Shown here: positions 52,917 through 64,000 of the stretch, piece by piece
How the letters are laid out: each line of letters opens with the position of its first letter
How positions within the stretch are numbered: position 1 is the first letter of the stretch
DNA from: Massilia sp. UMI-21
Lineage (GTDB): Bacteria > Pseudomonadota > Gammaproteobacteria > Burkholderiales > Burkholderiaceae_D
Direction: 5' to 3'
NCBI GenBank assembly: GCA_015277795.1
Contig: CP063848.1
Coordinates: 3,410,001 to 3,474,000 of the forward strand
DNA length: 64,000 nt
Made by a program: the position numbers and the translations under genes
The notes under the pieces: generated by a model
Seen by the model: only the letters and a program-made list of their open reading frames with translations
Told to the model about the DNA's origin: nothing
Database searches by the model: none

Positions 52917-55900
52917 TCAATTTCCGTCCTGGGTGCGGGTGCCGAGCCGGTTGCCGAGCTCGCGTTCGATGCGTCCCAACTGGGCGCGCAGGCGGGCCGC
53001 CAGGGCGCGTGCCTGGGCCGGGCGCCCGGCCTGGCCCTCGAGCTCTTCGCACAGGTCGGCGAAGGCCAGCGCACCCACCGCGCGCGCGGAAGACTTGACC
53101 CGGTGCGCCACCGCCGACACCTGCGCCAGGTCGCCGGCCCCGAGTGCGGCGTCGATCTCCGCAAGGGCGGTACGCGCCGTGGACACGAACAGGAAGGCGA
53201 ACTTGCGCATCCGCTCGCGGTCGCCGCCGAAGTTGCTTTCCAGCAGCGCCAGGTCGAGCAGGCCCGCGACCAGGCCCGCGACCGGGCCGCCCTCGGACGG
53301 GCGCGGCGCCACCACGTCGGGCACCGCGGCCGCGCTGCGGCCGAGGCAGCGCGCGATGGTTGCCGCCAGCAACTCCGGCACCACCGGCTTGCTCAGGAAT
53401 TCGTCCATGCCGGCCTGCAGGCAGCGGGCGCGGTCCTCGATCCCGGCGTTGGCGGTCATCGCAATCACCAGGGTCGTGGCCAGCAGGGGATCCTGGCGGA
53501 TCCGGCGCGTGGCTTCCAGGCCGTCCATGACCGGCATCTGCACGTCCATCAGGACGCAGTCGAAGCGTTCGCGCGCCATCGCCTCCAGCGCCTCCTGGCC
53601 GTTGGCGGCCACGCGCACGTCGGCGCCGGCGCGCTGCAGGAGCTCGCGGCCGACCTGCTGGTTGAACGGATTGTCCTCGACCAGCAGGACCGCGCAGCCG
53701 TCCAGGCGCGTGGCGCGCGCCCCGTCCGGCCCCGCCCCCAGGCCGGCGCCCGCGCCGGCGGCGCCGTCTTCGCGCGCAAGGTTCAGCTCCAGGCGCGCCG
53801 TGAACCAGAAGGTGCTGCCCTGCCCCGGCACGCTGTCGACGCCGACTTCTCCGTGCATGAGCTCGGCAAGTTGCTTGCTGATTACCAGGCCCAGGCCGGT
53901 GCCGCCATGGCGCCGCGTGGCCGACGGATCGGTCTGGTGGAAGGGCGTGAACAGGCCGTCCAGCTTGTCGGGCGCGATACCGATGCCGCTGTCCCGGACA
54001 TCGAAGCGCACCAGCAGCTCGGGGCCGAAGGCATGGTCGAGCCGGGCGCGCAGCAGGATCCGGCCGTGCTCCGAGAACTTGACGGCGTTGCCGGCGAAAT
54101 TGAGCAGCACTTGTTCGAGGCGCAGCGGATCGCCGCGCAGGGGGCGCATCAGCTCGGGAGCGATATCGACGTCGAAACCCAATCCCTTGGCGCCCGCGGC
54201 CGGCCCCAGCTGCTGCTCGACGTTGCGCATCACGGTCTCCAGCATGAAGCCGCGGGTGTCGAGTTCGAGCTTGCCTGCCTCGATCTTGGAAAAATCGAGG
54301 ATGTCGTTGATGATGCCCAGCAGGTGCTGGCCGGAGTGGTAGATCCGGTCCAGGTAGCCGCGCAGCTGCGGGTCCGGATGCGCCTGCAGCGCCAGGTGGG
54401 TCATGCCGATGATGCTGTTCATCGGCGTACGGATCTCGTGGCTCATGTTCGACAGGAAGTCGCTCTTGGCCTGGTTGGCGGCGTCGGCGCGCGCCTTGAG
54501 CGCGTGCAGGGTCGTGACGTCGGTCGAGATGCACAGCACCGCCGGCATCTCGCCCTCCGGATGCAGGGGCACGCGCACGCTCCACATCTGGCGGCTGGAG
54601 CCGTCCGGGACCATCATCTCGACCTGGCGCGCGTCGCGCGTGCCCGTCTCCAGCGCCGCGCGGTCGCGCACCCAGATCGCATCGGCCAGCGCCGGCGGCA
54701 TGAGATCGACGTCGCGGCGCCCCACCACTGCCGATGCCGGCAGGCCCAGCGCCGCGGCGCTCTTGGCGTTGACGTACCGGTAGCGGCGCGCGCCGTCTTT
54801 CAGGTAAACATAGGCGTCCAGGTTGTCCAGCACCGAGTCGAGCAGCAGGCGCTGGTCGAGCGCAGCCCGGCGCGAGCGCACCAGGTTGAAGAACAGCGCG
54901 AATCCCAGCAAGCTGACGCCGAAGCCGGAACCGAACGCCAGCAAGGGAAGGTAGCGGTCGGAGCCCACCGCCATGGCCGCGCGCTCGGCCGAGAAATGGG
55001 CCTTCCAGCGCGTGCCGACGTAGTCGATCGGGAGCAGGGTCGTGAAACGCCCGCCCGGCCCGGACTGGCCGCGCACGTCGGGGCCGACCAGCAGGCGGTC
55101 GCGCGGGTCGAGCGCCAGTTGGCCGCCGGCGCCGGACCCGCCCTTGCGGACCGGCGCGGGCTCGCTGTACAGGCTCAGCGCCACCGGCGGCCGGCCCTCC
55201 GGGCCGAGCGCGCGGCGCACCAGGTCGTTGACCGAGAACGCAATGCCGATGCTGCCGATGTAGCGCGCACGGCGCTCTTCCAGCGTGGCCGGCACCCCGC
55301 CCCCCAGGTAGAGCGGCTCGCGCATGCCGAGCGCCGTGTGCGGCGTGGGGTACTGGAGGTGTACCGGATTGCCGGAAGCGCCCATGGTCCCGCGGTCGCG
55401 CGCCTCCTCCAGCACCGCGGCGATGTGGGGCTGGACGGCGATGTCGACGCCGAAGCGGTCGTTCGGCTCGCTGGCCGGCTCGACCCAGGTGATCACCGCG
55501 TACCATGGCCGGCGCCCGGCGGGGCGGATGTCGAAGCCCGGATAGCCGGCCGGGTTCACGCTGCGGTCATTGCGCACCCCGGCGACGAAGGCCTCGCGCT
55601 CGGCGTCGGGCACGTAGGCGATGAAGGAGACGGCGTCGATCGCCGGGAACTGCTCCGGCAGGTCGAGCGCGGCCACGTAGCGGTGCAGCCGCAGCCGCGT
55701 CAGCGGGCCCTCTCCCGCGGCATGCAGCGCCGACATGCCGCGCACCACCCGGGCATAGGACGCGATCGCGCTCGACACCCGCTCCTGGGCCAGGCGGGCC
55801 ACGGTCTCGAAACGGCGCCGCGCGTCGTCCTCGACGGTGCCGGCCGCGACCCGGTAACACAGCGCCCCGACCACCAGCGACAGCGCGAGCCCGGCCACCC

Positions 55901-55991
55901 AGGGGGCGGCGCTCGCCCCCTGCTGCGGGGCGCTGCTTGCCGTGTTGGCTGCGGCGTTCACTCCTGAACTGCCGGCGGACGAAGAATCCAT
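52917..55991 (-). CDS. CHASE-PAS hybrid sensor histidine kinase with REC and HPt
   Basis: A 1,024-residue inner-membrane kinase. Order: membrane helix (about 30-48); periplasmic CHASE domain (about 70-300, with FPAIDAVSFIAYVPDAERE and NPAGYPGFDIRPAGRRPWY); second helix (about 345-365); PAS (about 385-490); HisKA with the phospho-acceptor in SNMSHEIRTPMNSIIG; HATPase (NFAGNAVKFSEHG, DSGIGIAP, GGTGLGLVIS); receiver domain with VLMDVQMPVMDG; and HPt with VAHRVKSSARAVGALAF. This is a full multistep phosphorelay. No response regulator gene lies next to it. CHASE domains bind small extracellular ligands. Confidence 0.93.
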   Translation of the reverse strand: MDSSSAGSSGVNAAANTASSAPQQGASAAPWVAGLALSLVVGALCYRVAAGTVEDDARRRFETVARLAQERVSSAIASYARVVRGMSALHAAGEGPLTRLRLHRYVAALDLPEQFPAIDAVSFIAYVPDAEREAFVAGVRNDRSVNPAGYPGFDIRPAGRRPWYAVITWVEPASEPNDRFGVDIAVQPHIAAVLEEARDRGTMGASGNPVHLQYPTPHTALGMREPLYLGGGVPATLEERRARYIGSIGIAFSVNDLVRRALGPEGRPPVALSLYSEPAPVRKGGSGAGGQLALDPRDRLLVGPDVRGQSGPGGRFTTLLPIDYVGTRWKAHFSAERAAMAVGSDRYLPLLAFGSGFGVSLLGFALFFNLVRSRRAALDQRLLLDSVLDNLDAYVYLKDGARRYRYVNAKSAAALGLPASAVVGRRDVDLMPPALADAIWVRDRAALETGTRDARQVEMMVPDGSSRQMWSVRVPLHPEGEMPAVLCISTDVTTLHALKARADAANQAKSDFLSNMSHEIRTPMNSIIGMTHLALQAHPDPQLRGYLDRIYHSGQHLLGIINDILDFSKIEAGKLELDTRGFMLETVMRNVEQQLGPAAGAKGLGFDVDIAPELMRPLRGDPLRLEQVLLNFAGNAVKFSEHGRILLRARLDHAFGPELLVRFDVRDSGIGIAPDKLDGLFTPFHQTDPSATRRHGGTGLGLVISKQLAELMHGEVGVDSVPGQGSTFWFTARLELNLAREDGAAGAGAGLGAGPDGARATRLDGCAVLLVEDNPFNQQVGRELLQRAGADVRVAANGQEALEAMARERFDCVLMDVQMPVMDGLEATRRIRQDPLLATTLVIAMTANAGIEDRARCLQAGMDEFLSKPVVPELLAATIARCLGRSAAAVPDVVAPRPSEGGPVAGLVAGLLDLALLESNFGGDRERMRKFAFLFVSTARTALAEIDAALGAGDLAQVSAVAHRVKSSARAVGALAFADLCEELEGQAGRPAQARALAARLRAQLGRIERELGNRLGTRTQDGN

Positions 55992-56065: not shown

Positions 56066-58198
56066 ATGCATCGACATCATCCCGACCCCGCTCCCATGAC
56101 GCCTCCAGGCCACCCGGATATGCCTCCGCCCGCCCCCGACGACCCCTACCTCTGGCTCGAGGAAGTCGACGGCGCCCGGGCCCGCGCCTGGGTCGTGCAG
56201 CGCAATGCGGCGACCGAACGCGAACTCGAGGCGGCGCCGCAGCACCCCGCCATGCGCGAGCGGCTGCGCGCCATCCTCGACTCCACCGGCAGGATCCCCT
56301 ACGCCGGCTGCCATGCCGGCCTGCTGTACAACTTCTGGCGCGACGCCGTTCATGCGCGCGGCATCTGGCGCCGCACCACGCTGGACGAGTATCGCAAGGA
56401 TGCGCCCGATTGGGAAACCCTGATCGACCTCGACCAGCTTGCCCGCGACGAAGGCGAGAACTGGGTGTGGGGCGGCGTCACCTGGCTCGAGCCCGATGGC
56501 GACCGTTGCCTGGTGTCGCTCTCGCGCGGCGGCGGCGACGCCCACGTGGTGCGCGAGTTCGATGCTGCGGCGCGCTGCTTCGTGACCGGCGAGCAGGGGT
56601 TCGTCCTGCCCGAGGCCAAGAGCGACTGCGCCTGGATCGACCGCGACACCCTGTTCGTGGCGACCGACTTCGGCCCCGGCTCGCTGACCGAATCGGGCTA
56701 CCCGCGCATCGTCAGGCGGTGGCGGCGCGGCACGTCGCTCGACGCCGCCGTCAGCGTCTACGAGGCCGGACTCGACGACCTGTCGGCCTCGGCATGGCGT
56801 GATGCGACGCCCGGTTTCGAGCGCGAATTCGTGCAGCGCCAGATCGGCTTCTACAGCAGCGAACTGTTCCTGCGGCGCGACGGCGGCCTGGTCAAGATAC
56901 CCAAGCCTGAGGACGCGAACGCCTTCGCGGTACGCGACCAACTGGTGATCGAGCTGAGGTCAAGCCAGGAGTTCGGCGGGCGCAACTACCCGCAAGGTGC
57001 GCTGCTGGCCGTGGACTTCGAAGGCTTCCTGCGCGGCGACGCCTCGTGCGAACTGCTGTTCGCGCCTTCGCCGACCGCCTCGCTCGACGGCCTCACGGTC
57101 ACGCGCGACGCCTTGCTGCTCAAGGTGCTCGACAAGGTGAAGAACCGCATCGTCGAACTGCGCCGCACGGACGGCGGCTGGCAGGCGGGCGACGTCGCGG
57201 CGCCCGCAATCGGCGCCCTCGACACCTGGGCCTTCGACGCCGTCGCCTCGAACCGCTACTTCCTCACGGCGACCGGCTTCACCGCACCGTCCACCCTCTA
57301 CCTGATGGAGTGCTGCGGCGATCACCAAGCCGCCGGACGCAGCGAGGGGCGCGAGCTCCTGAAGGCGATGCCCGCCTTCTTCGAGGCGGATGCCCTGCAG
57401 GTCGACCAGTTCGAGGCACTGTCGAGCGACGGCACCCGCGTCCCCTATTTTGTCGTCATGCGCCGCGACACCCGGCTCGACGGCGACAACCCGACGGTCC
57501 TGTACGGCTACGGCGGCTTCGAAGTGTCGCTCAAGCCCTCCTACGGCGCGATCAGCGGCGCCGCCTGGCTGGAGAGCGGGGGCGTCTACGTGGTCGCCAA
57601 CATCCGCGGCGGCGGCGAGTTCGGCCCGCGCTGGCACCAGGCGGCGCTGAAGGCAAACCGCCAGCGCGCCTTCGACGACTTCATCGCCGTGGCAGAGGAC
57701 CTGATCGCCAGGAAGATCAGCAGCCCGCGCCGGCTCGGCATCATGGGCGGCAGCAACGGCGGCCTGCTGGTCGGCGCCGTGCTCACCCAGCGTCCCGAGC
57801 TGTTCAACGCCGTGGTATGCCAGGTGCCGCTGCTGGACATGCGCCGCTATCACCAGTTGCTGGCCGGCGCCTCCTGGATGGGCGAATACGGCGATCCGGA
57901 CGACCCGACCGAATGGGCCTGGATCGGACGCTGGTCGCCTTACCACCAGTTGCGGGCAGGCGTGCGCTACCCGCGCGTGCTGTTCACCACCTCGACCCGC
58001 GACGACCGGGTCCACCCGGGCCATGCGCGCAAGATGGCCGCGCGCATGCTCGAACTGGGGCAGGATGTGCTGTACTGGGAAAACACCGAAGGCGGCCATG
58101 CGGGCGCCGCCGACAATGCGCAGACCGCGCGCATGTGGGCGTTGACCTGGACCTTCCTGCAAACGCAGCTTCGAGACCGGCCGAGCTCCAACACCTAG
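56066..58198 (+). CDS. S9 family prolyl oligopeptidase
   Basis: A 710-residue serine peptidase. The N-terminal propeller begins with PPAPDDPYLWLEEVDGARAR; the catalytic domain has YGYGGFEVSLKPSYGAISG, the nucleophile GGSNGGLLVGAVLTQ, the acid TSTRDDRVHPGHARKMAARM and the histidine NTEGGHAGAADN. No signal peptide is apparent, so it is cytosolic. It cleaves short proline-containing peptides. The start at MHRHHPDPAP or the ATG ten codons later are equally possible. It ends 3 bp before the convergent synthase gene stop. Confidence 0.92.
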   Translation: MHRHHPDPAPMTPPGHPDMPPPAPDDPYLWLEEVDGARARAWVVQRNAATERELEAAPQHPAMRERLRAILDSTGRIPYAGCHAGLLYNFWRDAVHARGIWRRTTLDEYRKDAPDWETLIDLDQLARDEGENWVWGGVTWLEPDGDRCLVSLSRGGGDAHVVREFDAAARCFVTGEQGFVLPEAKSDCAWIDRDTLFVATDFGPGSLTESGYPRIVRRWRRGTSLDAAVSVYEAGLDDLSASAWRDATPGFEREFVQRQIGFYSSELFLRRDGGLVKIPKPEDANAFAVRDQLVIELRSSQEFGGRNYPQGALLAVDFEGFLRGDASCELLFAPSPTASLDGLTVTRDALLLKVLDKVKNRIVELRRTDGGWQAGDVAAPAIGALDTWAFDAVASNRYFLTATGFTAPSTLYLMECCGDHQAAGRSEGRELLKAMPAFFEADALQVDQFEALSSDGTRVPYFVVMRRDTRLDGDNPTVLYGYGGFEVSLKPSYGAISGAAWLESGGVYVVANIRGGGEFGPRWHQAALKANRQRAFDDFIAVAEDLIARKISSPRRLGIMGGSNGGLLVGAVLTQRPELFNAVVCQVPLLDMRRYHQLLAGASWMGEYGDPDDPTEWAWIGRWSPYHQLRAGVRYPRVLFTTSTRDDRVHPGHARKMAARMLELGQDVLYWENTEGGHAGAADNAQTARMWALTWTFLQTQLRDRPSSNT

Positions 58199-58201
58199 GC
58201 G

Positions 58202-58795
58202 CTACGCCGCCTGGGAAGCCATGCGCCGCGCATACAGCGCTTCCCAGGTGGCCTGCACGTCGACATAGAAGGCCACCGCGTTTTCGATGCCGATCCGCTG
58301 CGGCTCGCCGAGGCGGCTGGTGACCACGCCGGCACGGCGCGTCAGTCGCTCCATGGCGGTGGTGGTCACGGTCACGTAGTGCGTCAGGCCGTTCTCCATG
58401 CCGTAGCGGACCACGGCCTCGAAGCATTGCATCGTCATGTCCGAGAAGCCGTAGCGGTTCTCCTTGTCGGTTTCGAGGGCGAAGCGCGACAGCTCCCAGA
58501 TGCGCGGGTCGCTCGGCGCGGCGCGGCCCTCGAGCAGCTGGGCGAAGGAATCCTTGAGCATGTACGGGCCTTCGGTCGGCAGCAGGCGCCAGCACCCGAG
58601 CAGCGGGCCGCTCGGCGCGCGCATCACCATGTAGGCCGGATCGAGCGCGTCGTAGCCATCGATTTCCATGCCCGACATCACCGGCACCTCCCAACCCAGC
58701 CGTCCGCTGAACACCTTGGCGCGCAGGGTATGCATTTCCCACAGATCTTTCGATTTGAATTCACGGCGTGCTGCGATTTTGATTTGCATCGTCAT
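58202..58795 (-). CDS. lasI: Acyl-homoserine-lactone synthase, LasI-like
   Basis: A 197-residue LuxI-family synthase that makes an N-acyl-homoserine lactone from SAM and acyl-ACP. All invariant residues are present at family positions: R25, F29, W35, D46, D49, R70, F84, E101 and R104. Segments MEIDGYDALDPAYM, GCWRLLPTEGPYMLKDSF and IWELSRFA, and the threonines in VTVTTTAMERL, are closest to Pseudomonas LasI, which makes 3-oxo-C12-HSL; the threonines favour 3-oxo substrates. It is divergent from the RsaL-like gene, with a 160-bp regulatory region that has a las-box-like site and an RsaL-operator-like palindrome. Confidence 0.93.
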   Translation of the reverse strand: MTMQIKIAARREFKSKDLWEMHTLRAKVFSGRLGWEVPVMSGMEIDGYDALDPAYMVMRAPSGPLLGCWRLLPTEGPYMLKDSFAQLLEGRAAPSDPRIWELSRFALETDKENRYGFSDMTMQCFEAVVRYGMENGLTHYVTVTTTAMERLTRRAGVVTSRLGEPQRIGIENAVAFYVDVQATWEALYARRMASQAA

Positions 58796-58826
58796 TTTCA
58801 GGCCCCTAGTTGTGGTGGTTCAAAGC

Positions 58827-58841
58827 TATGCACTTCGCATA
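58827..58841. promoter_or_regulatory. RsaL-operator-like palindrome
   Basis: TATGCACTTCGCATA, a 15-bp dyad with arms TATGC/GCATA. It matches 10 of the 12 fixed positions of the RsaL site as I remember it (TATGnAAnTTnCATA) and lies between the las-box-like site and the synthase start, 32 bp before the ATG. In P. aeruginosa RsaL binds the equivalent place and represses lasI. Confidence 0.7.
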
Positions 58842-58870
58842 CAAGATTCATGCATGCAGGGCAAAACTGG

Positions 58871-58890
58871 AACTATCAGGTCTGCTAGGT
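58871..58890. promoter_or_regulatory. las/lux-box-like receptor-binding site
   Basis: AACTATCAGGTCTGCTAGGT fits the CT-N12-AG core of las/lux boxes and, as I remember the lasI box (ATCTATCTCATTTGCTAGTT), is identical at 14 of 20 positions. It is 75 bp before the synthase start and 65 bp before the RsaL-like start, so one receptor dimer could drive both. Confidence 0.7.
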
Positions 58891-58955
58891 GGCTATGTGG
58901 ACGTGCGGTGGAATACTTGCAGTTTGCATAGCCAACCACGGAAAGGAGCAGACAG

Positions 58956-59228
58956 ATGGGTAACGAAGTGATGTGCGAAGCATTGGCGGCGGAACTGGAA
59001 GCCCAGCAAGCGGCGCAGGAGGGCGGCCCGAAGCGCGCCGCGCCGCACGAGCTGCGACGCCTGCGTATCGCCAAGCGCGAAAGTCAGGAGAAATTCTGGA
59101 GCCGCTTCGGCGTGACCCAGTCGAGCGGAAGCCGTTTCGAGACCGGCCTGGCGGTTCCTCCCCCGGTCGCCATCCTGTTGCGCCTGTACGTCAACGGGCG
59201 GGTCAGCGATGGTGATCTTCAGGTGTGA
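58956..59228 (+). CDS. rsaL: RsaL-like quorum-sensing repressor
   Basis: A 90-residue helix-turn-helix protein. The core KRESQEKFWSRFGVTQSSGS, RFETG and VNGRVSDGDL corresponds closely to Pseudomonas RsaL (RRESQETFWSRFGISQSCGS, RFENG, IEGQITDRQL from memory), the repressor of lasI. An N-terminal extension of about 30 residues, Ala/Glu-rich, is longer than in RsaL. A strong AAGGAG site precedes the ATG. The gene is divergent from the synthase and overlaps the 3' end of the receptor gene by 26 bp on the opposite strand, which could add antisense effects. Expected to bind the palindrome at 58827-58841. Confidence 0.85.
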   Translation: MGNEVMCEALAAELEAQQAAQEGGPKRAAPHELRRLRIAKRESQEKFWSRFGVTQSSGSRFETGLAVPPPVAILLRLYVNGRVSDGDLQV

Positions 59229-59937
59229 TCAGGCCCATGGCGATCGCCTTGACGACCGCCTGCTGACGTGTGTTGACGCCGAATTTCTGGCGCACGTTCG
59301 CCAGATGGAAGTTGACGGTCGCCTCGGAGCAGTTGGTGATCCGGGCGACCTCCCATGAAGACTTGCCGACCATGACCCATTGCAGGACCTCGAGCTCGCG
59401 GCGCGTCAGGCGCGGCAGCTCGGGCTCGGTCCTGGTCTCGCGAAAGCGCGCGGACGATGCGAATGCGTAGTCACGGATCAGGGACAAAACCGGCAGCGCC
59501 TGCAGCAGGGAGCGCTCGAAGGGCGCATCGGGCCGTGTGTCGGACGCGAAGCTGATCATGCCGAGTTCGCCCTGCGGGCCATGGATCGGCAGCGTCACGC
59601 CGCTACGGATGCCATGCGCGCTGGCTTCTTCGTACAGGGCGCCGGGCTCCCCGCTGCCGAAGGTCGAGGGGGCCCAGATCAGCGGCAGCGTGCTCGACAC
59701 GCAATGAACAACCGTCGGGTCGACGTAGTGAAAGCCGTTGGCATCGTAGCGATCACGCCATTCAGAAGAATAATTGCTGCGCGTAAATGCATTTTCGAAG
59801 CGCACATGGCGCGACGGCAAAACGCCAAAGATCATCTGGTCAAAGCCCTGGCTGCGCGCCAGTCTGAACATGCGTTCAGTCCAGGTACGTTCGTCTTCAG
59901 CCTCTAGCAACTCTAGTAATAGCGCAGTGTCAATCAT
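59203..59937 (-). CDS. lasR: LasR-like acyl-HSL receptor and transcription factor
   Basis: A 244-residue LuxR-family regulator. The autoinducer domain has Y56, W60, R61, D73, T75, W88 and S129, which are the ligand-contact residues of LasR at the same numbers. The DNA-binding part (LTRRELEVLQWVMVGKSSWE, NCSEATVNFHLANVRQKFGV) is also LasR-like. R61 contacts the 3-oxo group in LasR, so a 3-oxo-acyl-HSL ligand is predicted. The length is 5 residues more than LasR. It lies on the same strand as the synthase, with the RsaL-like gene between them. Confidence 0.92.
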   Translation of the reverse strand: MIDTALLLELLEAEDERTWTERMFRLARSQGFDQMIFGVLPSRHVRFENAFTRSNYSSEWRDRYDANGFHYVDPTVVHCVSSTLPLIWAPSTFGSGEPGALYEEASAHGIRSGVTLPIHGPQGELGMISFASDTRPDAPFERSLLQALPVLSLIRDYAFASSARFRETRTEPELPRLTRRELEVLQWVMVGKSSWEVARITNCSEATVNFHLANVRQKFGVNTRQQAVVKAIAMGLITPEDHHR

Positions 59938-60275
59938 GGGACAAGGGCGGGTCGCAATCTCTTCATGCTAAATGAGTTTGTTCAGTAAATACTCACCAAT
60001 TGCCACACCTTCGCCCAATGCAGGGGACACCACATGCACAACTGTAGTACCAATACAACAATACTCCCAATCGTGCGCTAGGCTTGTTCAGATTCCGCTA
60101 CCCTCCGCCGGATGCCCTTCCGGAATTTTCTTAATAGCAATGTTTCTTGAGGCCAGCATTGCAAATGCTTGACGCGAGTCTATTCGAGAGTATCTTCTCA
60201 GCATTTTACAGTTTACGGTCGCACGCCCAGCCTGCGGCGCCCCACCCTATCACCACCGAAACGAGGATCTAGTCG
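59938..60275. other. Intergenic region between the receptor and poly-HAMP kinase genes
   Basis: 338 bp between divergent genes. It is AT-richer than its surroundings near the receptor start. The only clear element is the kinase promoter at 60169-60196. No second las-box-like CT-N12-AG site of comparable quality was seen. Confidence 0.5.
60169..60196 (+). promoter_or_regulatory. Sigma-70-type promoter of the poly-HAMP kinase gene
   Basis: TTGACG (60169-60174) and TATCTT (60191-60196) with a 16-bp spacer, about 80 bp before the ATG. Confidence 0.55.
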
Positions 60276-63200
60276 ATGAACAACATGACCGACATGGGCG
60301 AACAGTTGGACGTCAAACTATTGTTGACCACCTTGATGGCGCTGAAGAAAGGCGACTTCTCGGTGCGCATGCCCTCGGACTGGACCGGTGTATCGGGCAA
60401 GATCGCCGACACCCTCAACGACATCATCGAGACCAAGCAGAAAATGGTGGAGACGGTGACCGACGTATCGCGCGTGGTGGGCCGCGAAGGCCACCTGACG
60501 CAGCGCGCCGACCTGCCGGGCGTGGTGGGCGGCTGGGCCACCATCATCAGCTCGGTCAACACCCTGATCGACGACCTGGTGCGCCCGACCACCGAGATGG
60601 CGCGCGTCATCGGCGCGGTGGCGAAGGGCGACCTGTCGCAGACCATGGCGCTGGAAGTGGACGGCCACCCGCTCAAGGGCCAGTACCTGCGCGCGGCGAT
60701 GACCGCCAACACCATGGTGGAGCAGCTGTCCTCGTTCTCGTCGGAGGTGACCCGGGTGGCGCGCGAGGTGGGCACCGAGGGTAAACTCGGCGGCCAGGCG
60801 CAGGTCAAGGGCGTGGCGGGCACCTGGAAGGACCTGACCGACTCGGTGAACTCGATGGCGGGCAACCTGACTTCGCAGGTGCGTAACATCGCGGAAGTGA
60901 CCACCGCGGTGGCGAACGGCGACTTGTCCAAGAAGATCACGGTGGACGTGCGCGGCGAGATCCTGCAGCTGAAGGACACCATCAACGTCATGGTGGACCA
61001 GCTGCGCTCCTTCGCATCCGAGGTGACCCGGGTGGCGCGCGAGGTGGGCACCGAGGGTAAACTCGGCGGCCAGGCCTACGTGCCGGGCGTGGCGGGCACC
61101 TGGAAGGACTTGACCGACAACGTGAACTTCATGGCCTCGAACCTGACCGGCCAGGTGCGTAACATCGCGGCGGTGACCACCGCGGTGGCGAACGGCGACC
61201 TGTCCAAGAAGATCACGGTGGACGTCAAGGGCGAGATTCTCGAACTGAAGAACACCATCAACGTGATGGTGGACCAGCTGTCCTCGTTCGCCTCCGAAGT
61301 CACCCGGGTGGCGCGCGAGGTGGGTACCGAAGGTAAACTCGGCGGCCAGGCGGTCGTGAAGGGCGTCGCGGGCACCTGGAAGGACTTGACCGACTCGGTC
61401 AACTCCATGGCGGGCAACCTGACCGGCCAGGTGCGTAACATCGCGGACGTGACCACTGCGGTGGCGAACGGCGACCTGTCCAAGAAGATCACGGTGGACG
61501 TGAAGGGCGAGATCCTCGAGCTGAAGAACACCATCAACGTGATGGTCGACCAGCTGAACTCCTTCGCATCGGAGGTGACCCGGGTGGCGCGCGAGGTCGG
61601 TACCGAGGGCCGCCTGGGCGGCCAGGCCAACGTGCCGGGCGTGGCGGGCACCTGGAAGGACCTGACCGACGGCGTGAACTCGATGGCGGGCAACCTGACC
61701 GGCCAGGTGCGTAACATCGCCGAGGTGACCACCGCCGTGGCGAACGGCGACCTGTCCAAGAAGATCACGGTGGACGTCAAGGGCGAGATTCTCGAACTGA
61801 AGAACACCATCAACGTGATGGTGGACCAGCTGTCCTCGTTCGCATCCGAGGTGACCCGCGTGGCGCGCGAAGTGGGCACCGAGGGTAAACTCGGCGGCCA
61901 GGCCTACGTGCCGGGCGTCGGCGGCACCTGGAAAGACCTGACCGACAACGTGAACTTCATGGCCTCGAACCTGACCGGCCAGGTGCGCAACATCGCGGCG
62001 GTGACGACCGCGGTGGCGCGCGGCGACCTGTCCAAGAAGATCACCGTGGACGTGAAGGGCGAGATTCTCGAACTGAAGGACACCATCAACGTCATGGTCG
62101 ACCAGCTGTCCTCGTTCGCATCCGAGGTGACCCGCGTCGCCCGTGAGGTGGGCACCGAAGGCAAGCTCGGTGGACAGGCGAACGTGTCCGGCGTGGCGGG
62201 CACCTGGAAGGACCTGACCGAGAACGTCAACCAGCTGGCGGCGAACCTGACCAACCAGATGCGCGCGATCGGCGAGGTGGCGACCGCGGTGACCCGCGGC
62301 GACCTGTCGCGTTCGATCCAGGTGGAAGCGCGCGGCGAGGTGTCCTACCTGAAGGACAACATCAACGAGATGATCCGCAACCTGAAGGAGACCACCCAGA
62401 AGAACGCGCAGCAGGACTGGCTGAAGACCAACCTGGCGCGCTTCACGCGCCTCTTGCAGGGCCAGCGCGACCTGCAGGCCGTGACCAAGCTGATCCTGTC
62501 CGAGCTGGCGCCGCTGGTGTCGGCCCACCACGGCGTGTTCTACATGATGGACTCGCAGGAGAGCGATGCACGCCTGCGCATGATCGCGTCCTACGGCTAC
62601 CGTTCCAGCCGCAAGCTGCCGACCTCGTTCCTGCCGGGCGAAGGCCTGGTGGGCCAGTGCGCGCTGGAGAAGAACCGCATCTGGCTGACCGACGTGCCGC
62701 GCGACTACATCGTGGTCTCGTCGGGCCTGGGCTCGGCGCCGCCGAACAACATCGTGGTGCTGCCGATCCTGTTCGAGCAGCAGGTCAAGGCGGTGATCGA
62801 GATCGCCTCGCTGGATCGCTTCACCGAAACCCACCTGTCCTTCCTCGACCAGCTGATGGAATCGATCGGCGTGGTCCTGAACACGATCGAGGCGAACAGC
62901 CGTACCGAGTCGCTGCTGACCCAGTCGCAGTCGCTGGCGCAGGAACTGCAGCAGACCAACCAGGAGCTGGCGGAGAAGGCGCGCCTGCTGTCCGAGCAGA
63001 ACATCGAGGTGGAACGCAAGAACCGCGAGGTGGAACAGGCCAAGCTGGCGCTGGAAGAGAAGGCGACCCAGCTGGCCCTGTCGTCCAAGTACAAGTCCGA
63101 GTTCCTGGCGAATATGTCGCACGAACTCAGGACGCCACTGAACTCGTTATTGATCCTGGCGCAGCAATTATCTGACAACCCCGAGGGCAACCTGTCGGGC

Positions 63201-64000
63201 AAGCAGGTGGAATTCGCCAAGACCATCCACGGTTCCGGCTCCGACCTGCTGACCCTGATCAACGACATTCTCGACCTGTCGAAGATCGAGTCCGGCACCG
63301 TCACGCTGGACGTGTCGGAGTACCGCTTCTCGAACCTGCGCAACTACGTGGACCGCACCTTCCGCCACATGGCCGAGGCCAAGCACCTCGGCTTCGAGGT
63401 GGCGCTGGCGGAGAACCTGCCGACCGCGGTGATGACCGACACCACGCGCCTGCAGCAGGTCCTGAAGAACCTGCTGTCGAACGCCTTCAAGTTCACCAGC
63501 CATGGCCAGGTGTCGCTGAGCATCAGCCTGGTGGGCAGCGGCTGGACCCACGACCACCCGAACCTGGTCCACGCCGATGCGGTGCTGGCCTTCTCGGTGC
63601 ACGATACCGGCGTCGGCATCCCGTCCGACAAGCTGCAGCTGATCTTCGAAGCCTTCCAGCAGGCCGACGGCTCGACCGCGCGCAAATACGGCGGCACCGG
63701 CCTGGGTCTGTCGATCTCGCGCGAACTGGCGCGCCTGCTGGGCGGCGAAATCCGCGTCGAGTCGACCGTCAACGTCGGCTCGACCTTCACCCTGTACCTG
63801 CCGTACAACCGGGCCGGCTTCATCAACTACGAACAGGCGCGCCAGCCGCAACCGGCCCGCCTGGCGCCGCCGGTCGTCCCGCCCCAGGTGGCCTACCAGC
63901 CCGCGCCGCAGGCAAGCGCCGACCTGTCCACGGTCGATGCGGTGGAAGCCGGTTCGCTGATCGAATACTCCTCGGTACTGGACGACCGCGGCCTGGTCAC
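60276..64000 (+). CDS. Soluble poly-HAMP hybrid histidine kinase (3' end beyond window)
   Basis: At least 1,241 residues, open to the right edge. ATG follows GAGGATC by 8 nt. There is no membrane segment. Order: an N-terminal helical HAMP-like unit (about 1-150, [20 protein letters not shown]); six tandem 92-residue HAMP repeats, each with [19 protein letters not shown] and [20 protein letters not shown] (DNA period 276 bp); GAF (about 720-870, [20 protein letters not shown]); coiled coil; HisKA with H949 in [13 protein letters not shown]; HATPase ([31 protein letters not shown]); then a Pro/Gln/Ala-rich linker. Receiver and HPt domains probably follow outside the window. Poly-HAMP arrays read osmotic or other cytosolic signals in fungal group III kinases. 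Confidence 0.9.
60745..62400 (+). repeat. Six tandem 276-bp repeats encoding HAMP units
   Basis: The unit beginning AGGTGACCCGGGTGGCGCGC recurs at 60745, 61021, 61297, 61573, 61849 and 62125, exactly 276 bp (92 codons) apart. The first five units are near-identical at DNA level while the last diverges toward its 3' end. They are a likely substrate for recombination and copy-number change. Confidence 0.9.

Follow-up and report, generated by a model that had tools for sequence, protein, structure and literature searches.

The Massilia genome analysed here carries an intact locus of the lasR-rsaL-lasI type (window 58202-59937), and we are highly confident in reading it as that organism's own version of the LasR-RsaL-LasI ('L1') circuit with its incoherent feed-forward loop; in a set of same-genus relatives, the synthase gene would seem to have been lost repeatedly. 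The window—the whole stretch of DNA that was analysed, 64,000 nucleotides in length—covers positions 3410001-3474000 of a genome that consists of a single contig of 5,302,561 bases and belongs to a soil bacterium of the family Oxalobacteraceae (Burkholderiales).

The three open reading frames lie where the preliminary description had placed them, in the same order and on the same strands (Table 1). Read from the receptor end, order and strands give the L1 arrangement as defined elsewhere (PMC3386692; PMC3742214): a receptor gene, an opposed rsaL, and a synthase gene in the direction of the receptor. At their 3' ends rsaL and lasR overlap, a feature that the earlier reading did not record; overlaps at this junction have been given as 10 bp for P. 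aeruginosa and 20 bp for P. fuscovaginae (PMC3386692). Elsewhere in the genome, a second match to the synthase family PF00765 is weak (35 bits), leaving one LasI-type synthase; the receptor is the sole PF03472 match, and there are two RsaL-type proteins. On the oligopeptidase side, window positions 52917-55991 encode a histidine kinase of the hybrid type, which combines CHASE and PAS with receiver and Hpt domains. The kinase beside lasR, found near that gene in most same-genus loci checked, contains a 276-bp tandem array of 5.8 copies (60713-62308). As to RNA elements, the single match within the locus (E 0.93) fell far under the gathering score and was rejected.

Table 1. Predicted features of the lasR-rsaL-lasI-type locus, its flanks and the second rsaL gene (window positions unless a locus or contig is named).
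Feature	Position	Strand	Basis or remark
Flanking prolyl oligopeptidase, converging on lasI	56066..58198	+	Pfam Peptidase_S9 and S9_N; synteny; start codon by eye
LasI-type acyl-homoserine-lactone synthase, 197 aa	58202..58795	-	ORF call, Pfam, PDB match
Predicted RsaL-type palindrome, TATGC-N5-GCATA	58827..58841		32-46 bp upstream of lasI start
Predicted las box, CTATCAGGTCTGCTAG	58873..58888		Between lasI and rsaL
RsaL-type repressor, 90 aa, HTH_92	58956..59228	+	ORF call, Pfam, PDB match
rsaL/lasR 3' overlap, 26 bp	59203..59228		ORF coordinates
LasR-type receptor/activator, 244 aa	59203..59937	-	ORF call, Pfam, PDB match, residues
Flanking histidine kinase, tandem HAMP domains	60273..64000	+	Stop-to-stop frame, start not fixed; exceeds window end
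Second, unlinked RsaL	L104 7740-8117 (HTH part G000:C1:2709778-2709912)		Between htpX gene and GGDEF gene

The type of circuit and the family assignments proposed at the outset are borne out by both Pfam and PDB matches. The synthase scores 134.7 bits against Autoind_synth, the RsaL-like protein 79 bits (E 1.6e-22) against HTH_92, and the receptor 113.7 and 72.4 bits against Autoind_bind and GerE respectively, all over cut-off; a comparison with all PDB sequences ranks first LasI for the synthase (192 bits; runner-up 91), LasR for the receptor (212 bits; the runner-up, an RhlR entry, at 111) and P. aeruginosa RsaL for the small protein (5j2y; E 1.1e-15). Over the aligned stretches, identity to the P. 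aeruginosa proteins is 50% for LasI, 44% for LasR and 56% for RsaL. All seven of the ligand-contact residues listed earlier for the receptor (Y56, W60, R61, D73, T75, W88 and S129) are found. The synthase likewise has, as read from the sequence, the residues that we take to be the conserved set of LuxI-type enzymes, R25, F29, W35, D46, D49, R70, F84, E101 and R104, together with the threonines T142/T144/T145 (window numbering); its product is probably a long-chain, 3-oxo acyl-homoserine lactone (AHL), judging by its relatives LasI and BraI.

The gap between lasI and rsaL holds two predicted sites absent from the preliminary description: the las box, CTATCAGGTCTGCTAG, and the RsaL-type palindrome, TATGCACTTCGCATA. 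As sequence sites, they provide the pairing that a feed-forward loop of this kind calls for, with a receptor site common to rsaL and lasI and an RsaL site at lasI; promoter prediction, on the other hand, found nothing sigma-70-like between the two genes. Across the 5.3-Mb genome, TATGC-N5-GCATA is matched exactly at one place, against four for the reversed control pattern; CTAKCA-N4-TGMTAG likewise has one exact match, plus one site at one mismatch, against 56 for its reversed pattern at equal tolerance. Apart from that one-mismatch las-like site, a search of the genome for more strict las boxes or palindromes found none, and we therefore propose no regulon. The RsaL site of P. aeruginosa, TATGnAAnTTnCATA, overlaps the lasI -10 box (PMC11139201); the Massilia palindrome matches it at the outer eight bases and departs from it at two of the four bases of the inner consensus. 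The Massilia locus shares with the P. aeruginosa system the order and strands of its genes, the overlap between the ends of lasR and rsaL, the las box, a TATG...CATA palindrome on the lasI side and the receptor contact residues; it differs in protein identity (44-56%), in the centre of the palindrome, in being the only LuxI/LuxR pair found in its genome, and in the presence there of a second, unlinked RsaL gene.

Both sites recur across the genus, to different degrees. Every one of the 35 lasI-bearing same-genus loci has the las box (strict form in 34), and the palindrome occurs in 22 of them in its strict form and 27 in its loose form; the distance from box to palindrome, start to start, is 44-47 bp in 20 of these 22, and 24 bp in two divergent loci. 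In dinucleotide-block shuffles of the 35 loci the las box appeared on average 0 times in its strict form and 1.2 times in its loose form, and the palindrome 0.03 times; over lasI-bearing and lasI-less loci alike (34/35 and 25/26 with a strict las box) the shuffle mean for the strict box is at most 0.005. Absence of the strict palindrome from 13 of the 35 lasI-bearing loci, eight of them also without the loose form, indicates that the site drifts or is dispensable in those clades. Over the 62 same-genus genomes the palindrome occurs 145 times, as compared with 102 for the reversed pattern, and 22 of the 145 are the lasI sites; most of the others may thus be chance occurrences.

Taken with the published Pseudomonas model of the LasR-RsaL incoherent feed-forward loop (PMC10746200), this anatomy suggests the following scheme. 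The LasI-type synthase would make an AHL; the receptor with its ligand bound would act from the las box to activate the divergently transcribed lasI and rsaL; RsaL would sit on the palindrome, to the lasI side of the las box, and repress lasI; and the resulting loop would cap or buffer the signal. Such a loop had been put forward in the preliminary description, and the two matching cis-sites strengthen that proposal; its chemistry, DNA binding and direction of regulation we infer from gene content, order, domains, ligand-contact residues and the conservation and near-uniqueness of the sites. It is rather unlikely, to our minds, that RsaL instead acts mainly as a global repressor elsewhere, from an equally intact set of genes, with a minor effect on lasI that the second RsaL shares: the genome's sole exact palindrome sits between rsaL and lasI, and none of the loci lacking lasI has the strict form (0/26), tying the site to lasI, even if P. 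aeruginosa RsaL is itself a wider regulator (PMC11139201), rsaL is retained with low dN/dS in lasI-less relatives, and the second RsaL has a near-identical helix-turn-helix with no las box upstream.

Second-type RsaL is encoded in the window's genome and in 11 other same-genus genomes, and is the sole RsaL found in one of them (G098). Upstream of its gene lies a block, other than a las box, that is conserved in a 12-row alignment; the neighbours include a GGDEF gene in 11 of 12 loci and the htpX protease gene in six of 12. As a LasR target the gene was rejected, the seven loci scanned having neither las box nor palindrome within 480 bp upstream of the HTH core. Close to it in our genome are two 455-aa open reading frames (L104 91-1458 and 1948-3315), identical in at least their first 70 residues and presumably group II intron reverse transcriptases.

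The supposed rarity of such a locus in the Oxalobacteraceae finds no support in other genomes. The complete lasR-rsaL-lasI locus is found in 35 of 62 same-genus genomes, counting that of the window; Massilia alkalitolerans and Massilia sp. BSC265 have synthases 94-95% identical to the one described here. In a 195-genome sample of the family, 60 genomes have a synthase match and 29 a LasI-type synthase (identity at least 51%); RsaL accompanies all 29 of the latter, as opposed to one of the 31 with a more distant synthase (G018, over cut-off). A BraR-RsaL-BraI system has, moreover, been published in plant-associated Burkholderia (PMC3742214), so this kind of circuit is known in the Betaproteobacteria. 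The locus is, in short, ordinary within its genus, and circuits of its kind have been described before in Pseudomonas and Paraburkholderia.

Our scan of named genomes kept the best 80 of 175 synthase relatives; of these 80, 70 have the arrangement receptor(+) RsaL(-) synthase(+), with one more carrying an extra synthase, three have synthase(+) RsaL(+) receptor(-), and six show other or cut-off arrangements. The three with synthase and RsaL co-stranded and the receptor opposed are two Pseudoduganella and one Solimicrobium (L085, L089 and L100). Two LuxI-type synthase genes lie near rsaL at loci L071, L074 and L076.

In a synthase tree built by a quick method, with no bootstrap and one Pseudomonas row, the main Massilia group forms one starred branch of 38 rows (the window and one unlabelled bin included), surrounded by other Oxalobacteraceae, Methylophilaceae and Gallionellaceae; two Massilia-named rows (L066 and L067) fall outside it, and P. 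aeruginosa LasI sits apart on a long branch. The preliminary description had left a choice between gene transfer and older ancestry, and had asked for a comparison of GC content. A recent horizontal gain from Pseudomonas would be in keeping with the gene types, which are those of Pseudomonas, and with the GC content of lasR (61.5%, against 67.2% for the window); we nevertheless consider it most improbable, given the position of P. aeruginosa LasI outside the Massilia group in this quick, single-Pseudomonas-row tree, the presence of RsaL in 62 of 62 same-genus genomes, and the shared flanks, with the oligopeptidase nearby in 28 and the kinase in 30 of the 33 Massilia-group loci L023-L055. Tree and synteny thus disfavour recent transfer, and the Massilia circuit has apparently been inherited within the genus.

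An older origin also admits a variant reading, in which an ancient betaproteobacterial cassette works by the same mechanism with a ligand or an output unlike that of Pseudomonas. Relatives in the Methylophilaceae, Gallionellaceae, Chitinibacteraceae and Paraburkholderia speak for it, as do receptor pocket positions 47 and 93, both F, at which we take LasR to have Y; the polar contacts checked in the receptor are, on the other hand, unchanged, and we rate this reading as a serious possibility that stops somewhat short of probable. The Paraburkholderia system (BraR-RsaL-BraI, published as Burkholderia) resembles that of Massilia in its L1 order and betaproteobacterial host, has BraI-type synthases 52-56% identical to the Massilia enzyme and, in plant-associated Burkholderia, is described as being under strict RsaL repression (PMC3742214). 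Unlike the Massilia locus, those of Paraburkholderia have no TATG...CATA palindrome in the 260 bp scanned upstream of the synthase, and their synthases occupy another branch of the tree.

Cell-cell signalling in the same family is also served by the JqsA/CqsA alpha-hydroxyketone (AHK) system of Janthinobacterium, whose synthase, unlike that of Massilia, is unrelated to the LasI type. The statement that other members of the family use this route is true of Janthinobacterium HH01 (PMC3566124), but within the genus extends to only 11 of 62 genomes with a CqsA-type synthase over cut-off; that of the window is not among them, its best match reaching 188 bits against an NF005526 cut-off of 428, and a CqsA/AHK route in it was accordingly rejected. 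Nine of the 11 positive genomes (G213, G224, G209, G113, G240, G235, G238, G171, G219, G239 and G241) are without lasI in the las locus.

Turning to the genus at large, RsaL and a PF03472 receptor are each found in 62 of 62 genomes, a synthase match in 38 and a LasI-type synthase in 35. In 26 genomes (L168-L170 and L172-L194) lasI is missing beside the overlapping lasR-rsaL pair, a count from which G098, an unclear case whose short contig has no rsaL of the first type, is excluded; three of the 26 (G018, G213 and G239) have a distant synthase elsewhere, 34-36% identical. The prolyl oligopeptidase gene adjoins rsaL in 25 of these loci (not G203). The las box is kept in all 26 (25 strict), and the palindrome is found in none in its strict form and one in its loose form. 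On a receptor tree of 60 same-genus rows and one outgroup, cleaned by removing G196 (13% filled), G098 and two distant outgroup rows, the presence of lasI changes three times (five before cleaning), each change being forced by well-supported branches. Since lasI is also part of the locus in relatives beyond the genus, we read these changes as losses, at least three of them separate.

What is left behind does not look neglected. In the lasI-less clades the median dN/dS of rsaL is 0.052 (a clade of 21 genomes, with 208 of its 210 pairs usable) and 0.013 (three pairs), whereas two clades with lasI give 0.129 (36 pairs) and 0.177 (43 of 45 pairs usable); that for the receptor is 0.132 and 0.121 as against 0.195 and 0.104, the pairs in both comparisons not being independent; with values this low, neither gene resembles a decaying remnant. 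In the lasI-less receptors W60, R61, D73 and W88 are kept in 26 of 26, Y56 in 23 and S129 in 21. T75, found in 34 of 34 lasI-bearing rows (the partial receptor of G196 excluded), persists in six of 26 lasI-less ones; position 75 changes at least six times on the tree, T75 having drifted to V/I/L/A, and an independent-pairs test of this drift against lasI loss, with only three pairs, was not significant.

These observations suggest that the lasI-less loci are 'listening' modules without a synthase of their own, with the repressor as output. More tentatively, and with slightly less than even confidence, we picture receptor, las box and rsaL as self-contained, hearing the signals of others or a changed ligand, with RsaL redirected to other promoters—the hpnA/ispH-hpnH gap being a candidate—and the window's genome preserving the intact ancestral state. 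Autoregulation is an alternative reason for the retention of rsaL, since RsaL of P. aeruginosa PA1201 also binds a second site, located at its own promoter (PMC11139201). In the openly accessible literature, including what is available of PMC10710839, PMC3386692, PMC3742214 and PMC10134790, we found no description of repeated synthase loss with receptor, las box and brake all kept.

The hopanoid promoter is a lead rather than a result. Among the palindrome matches listed, which run up to G217, six lasI-less genomes (G204, G206, G207, G211, G212 and G216) have a strict palindrome in the divergent hpnA/ispH-hpnH gap; a seventh, G215, located by position and not by palindrome, keeps nine of ten arm bases there (loci L224, L225, L229, L230, L234, L249 and L284). 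ATGC and GCAT are invariant in all seven sites and the five centre columns all vary, the first two in one genome only. As a further RsaL target the site is held at the level of a lead because the seven genomes are closely related, the pattern itself was what brought six of them to notice, and other lasI-less genomes among the matches listed (G197, G209 and G214, for example) have no palindrome at this place; one listed site each in the lasI-less G203 and G213 was left out of the set. In the lasI-bearing genome of the window, ispH was not found in the 400 kb searched, and the openly accessible literature yielded no link between RsaL and hopanoids.

With one LasI-type synthase, one receptor, an exact las box, an exact RsaL palindrome and a complete genome, the Massilia locus offers a clean natural test bed. 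A topology survey of 2012 recorded RsaL homologues that belong to no quorum-sensing circuit and, in its accessible text, left their significance open (PMC3386692). The less expected part, and the one worth specialist attention, is that the synthase was lost repeatedly while receptor, las box and brake stayed: the lasI-less sister species pose the question of what role a quorum-sensing receptor and its brake may have in a cell that has stopped making the signal.
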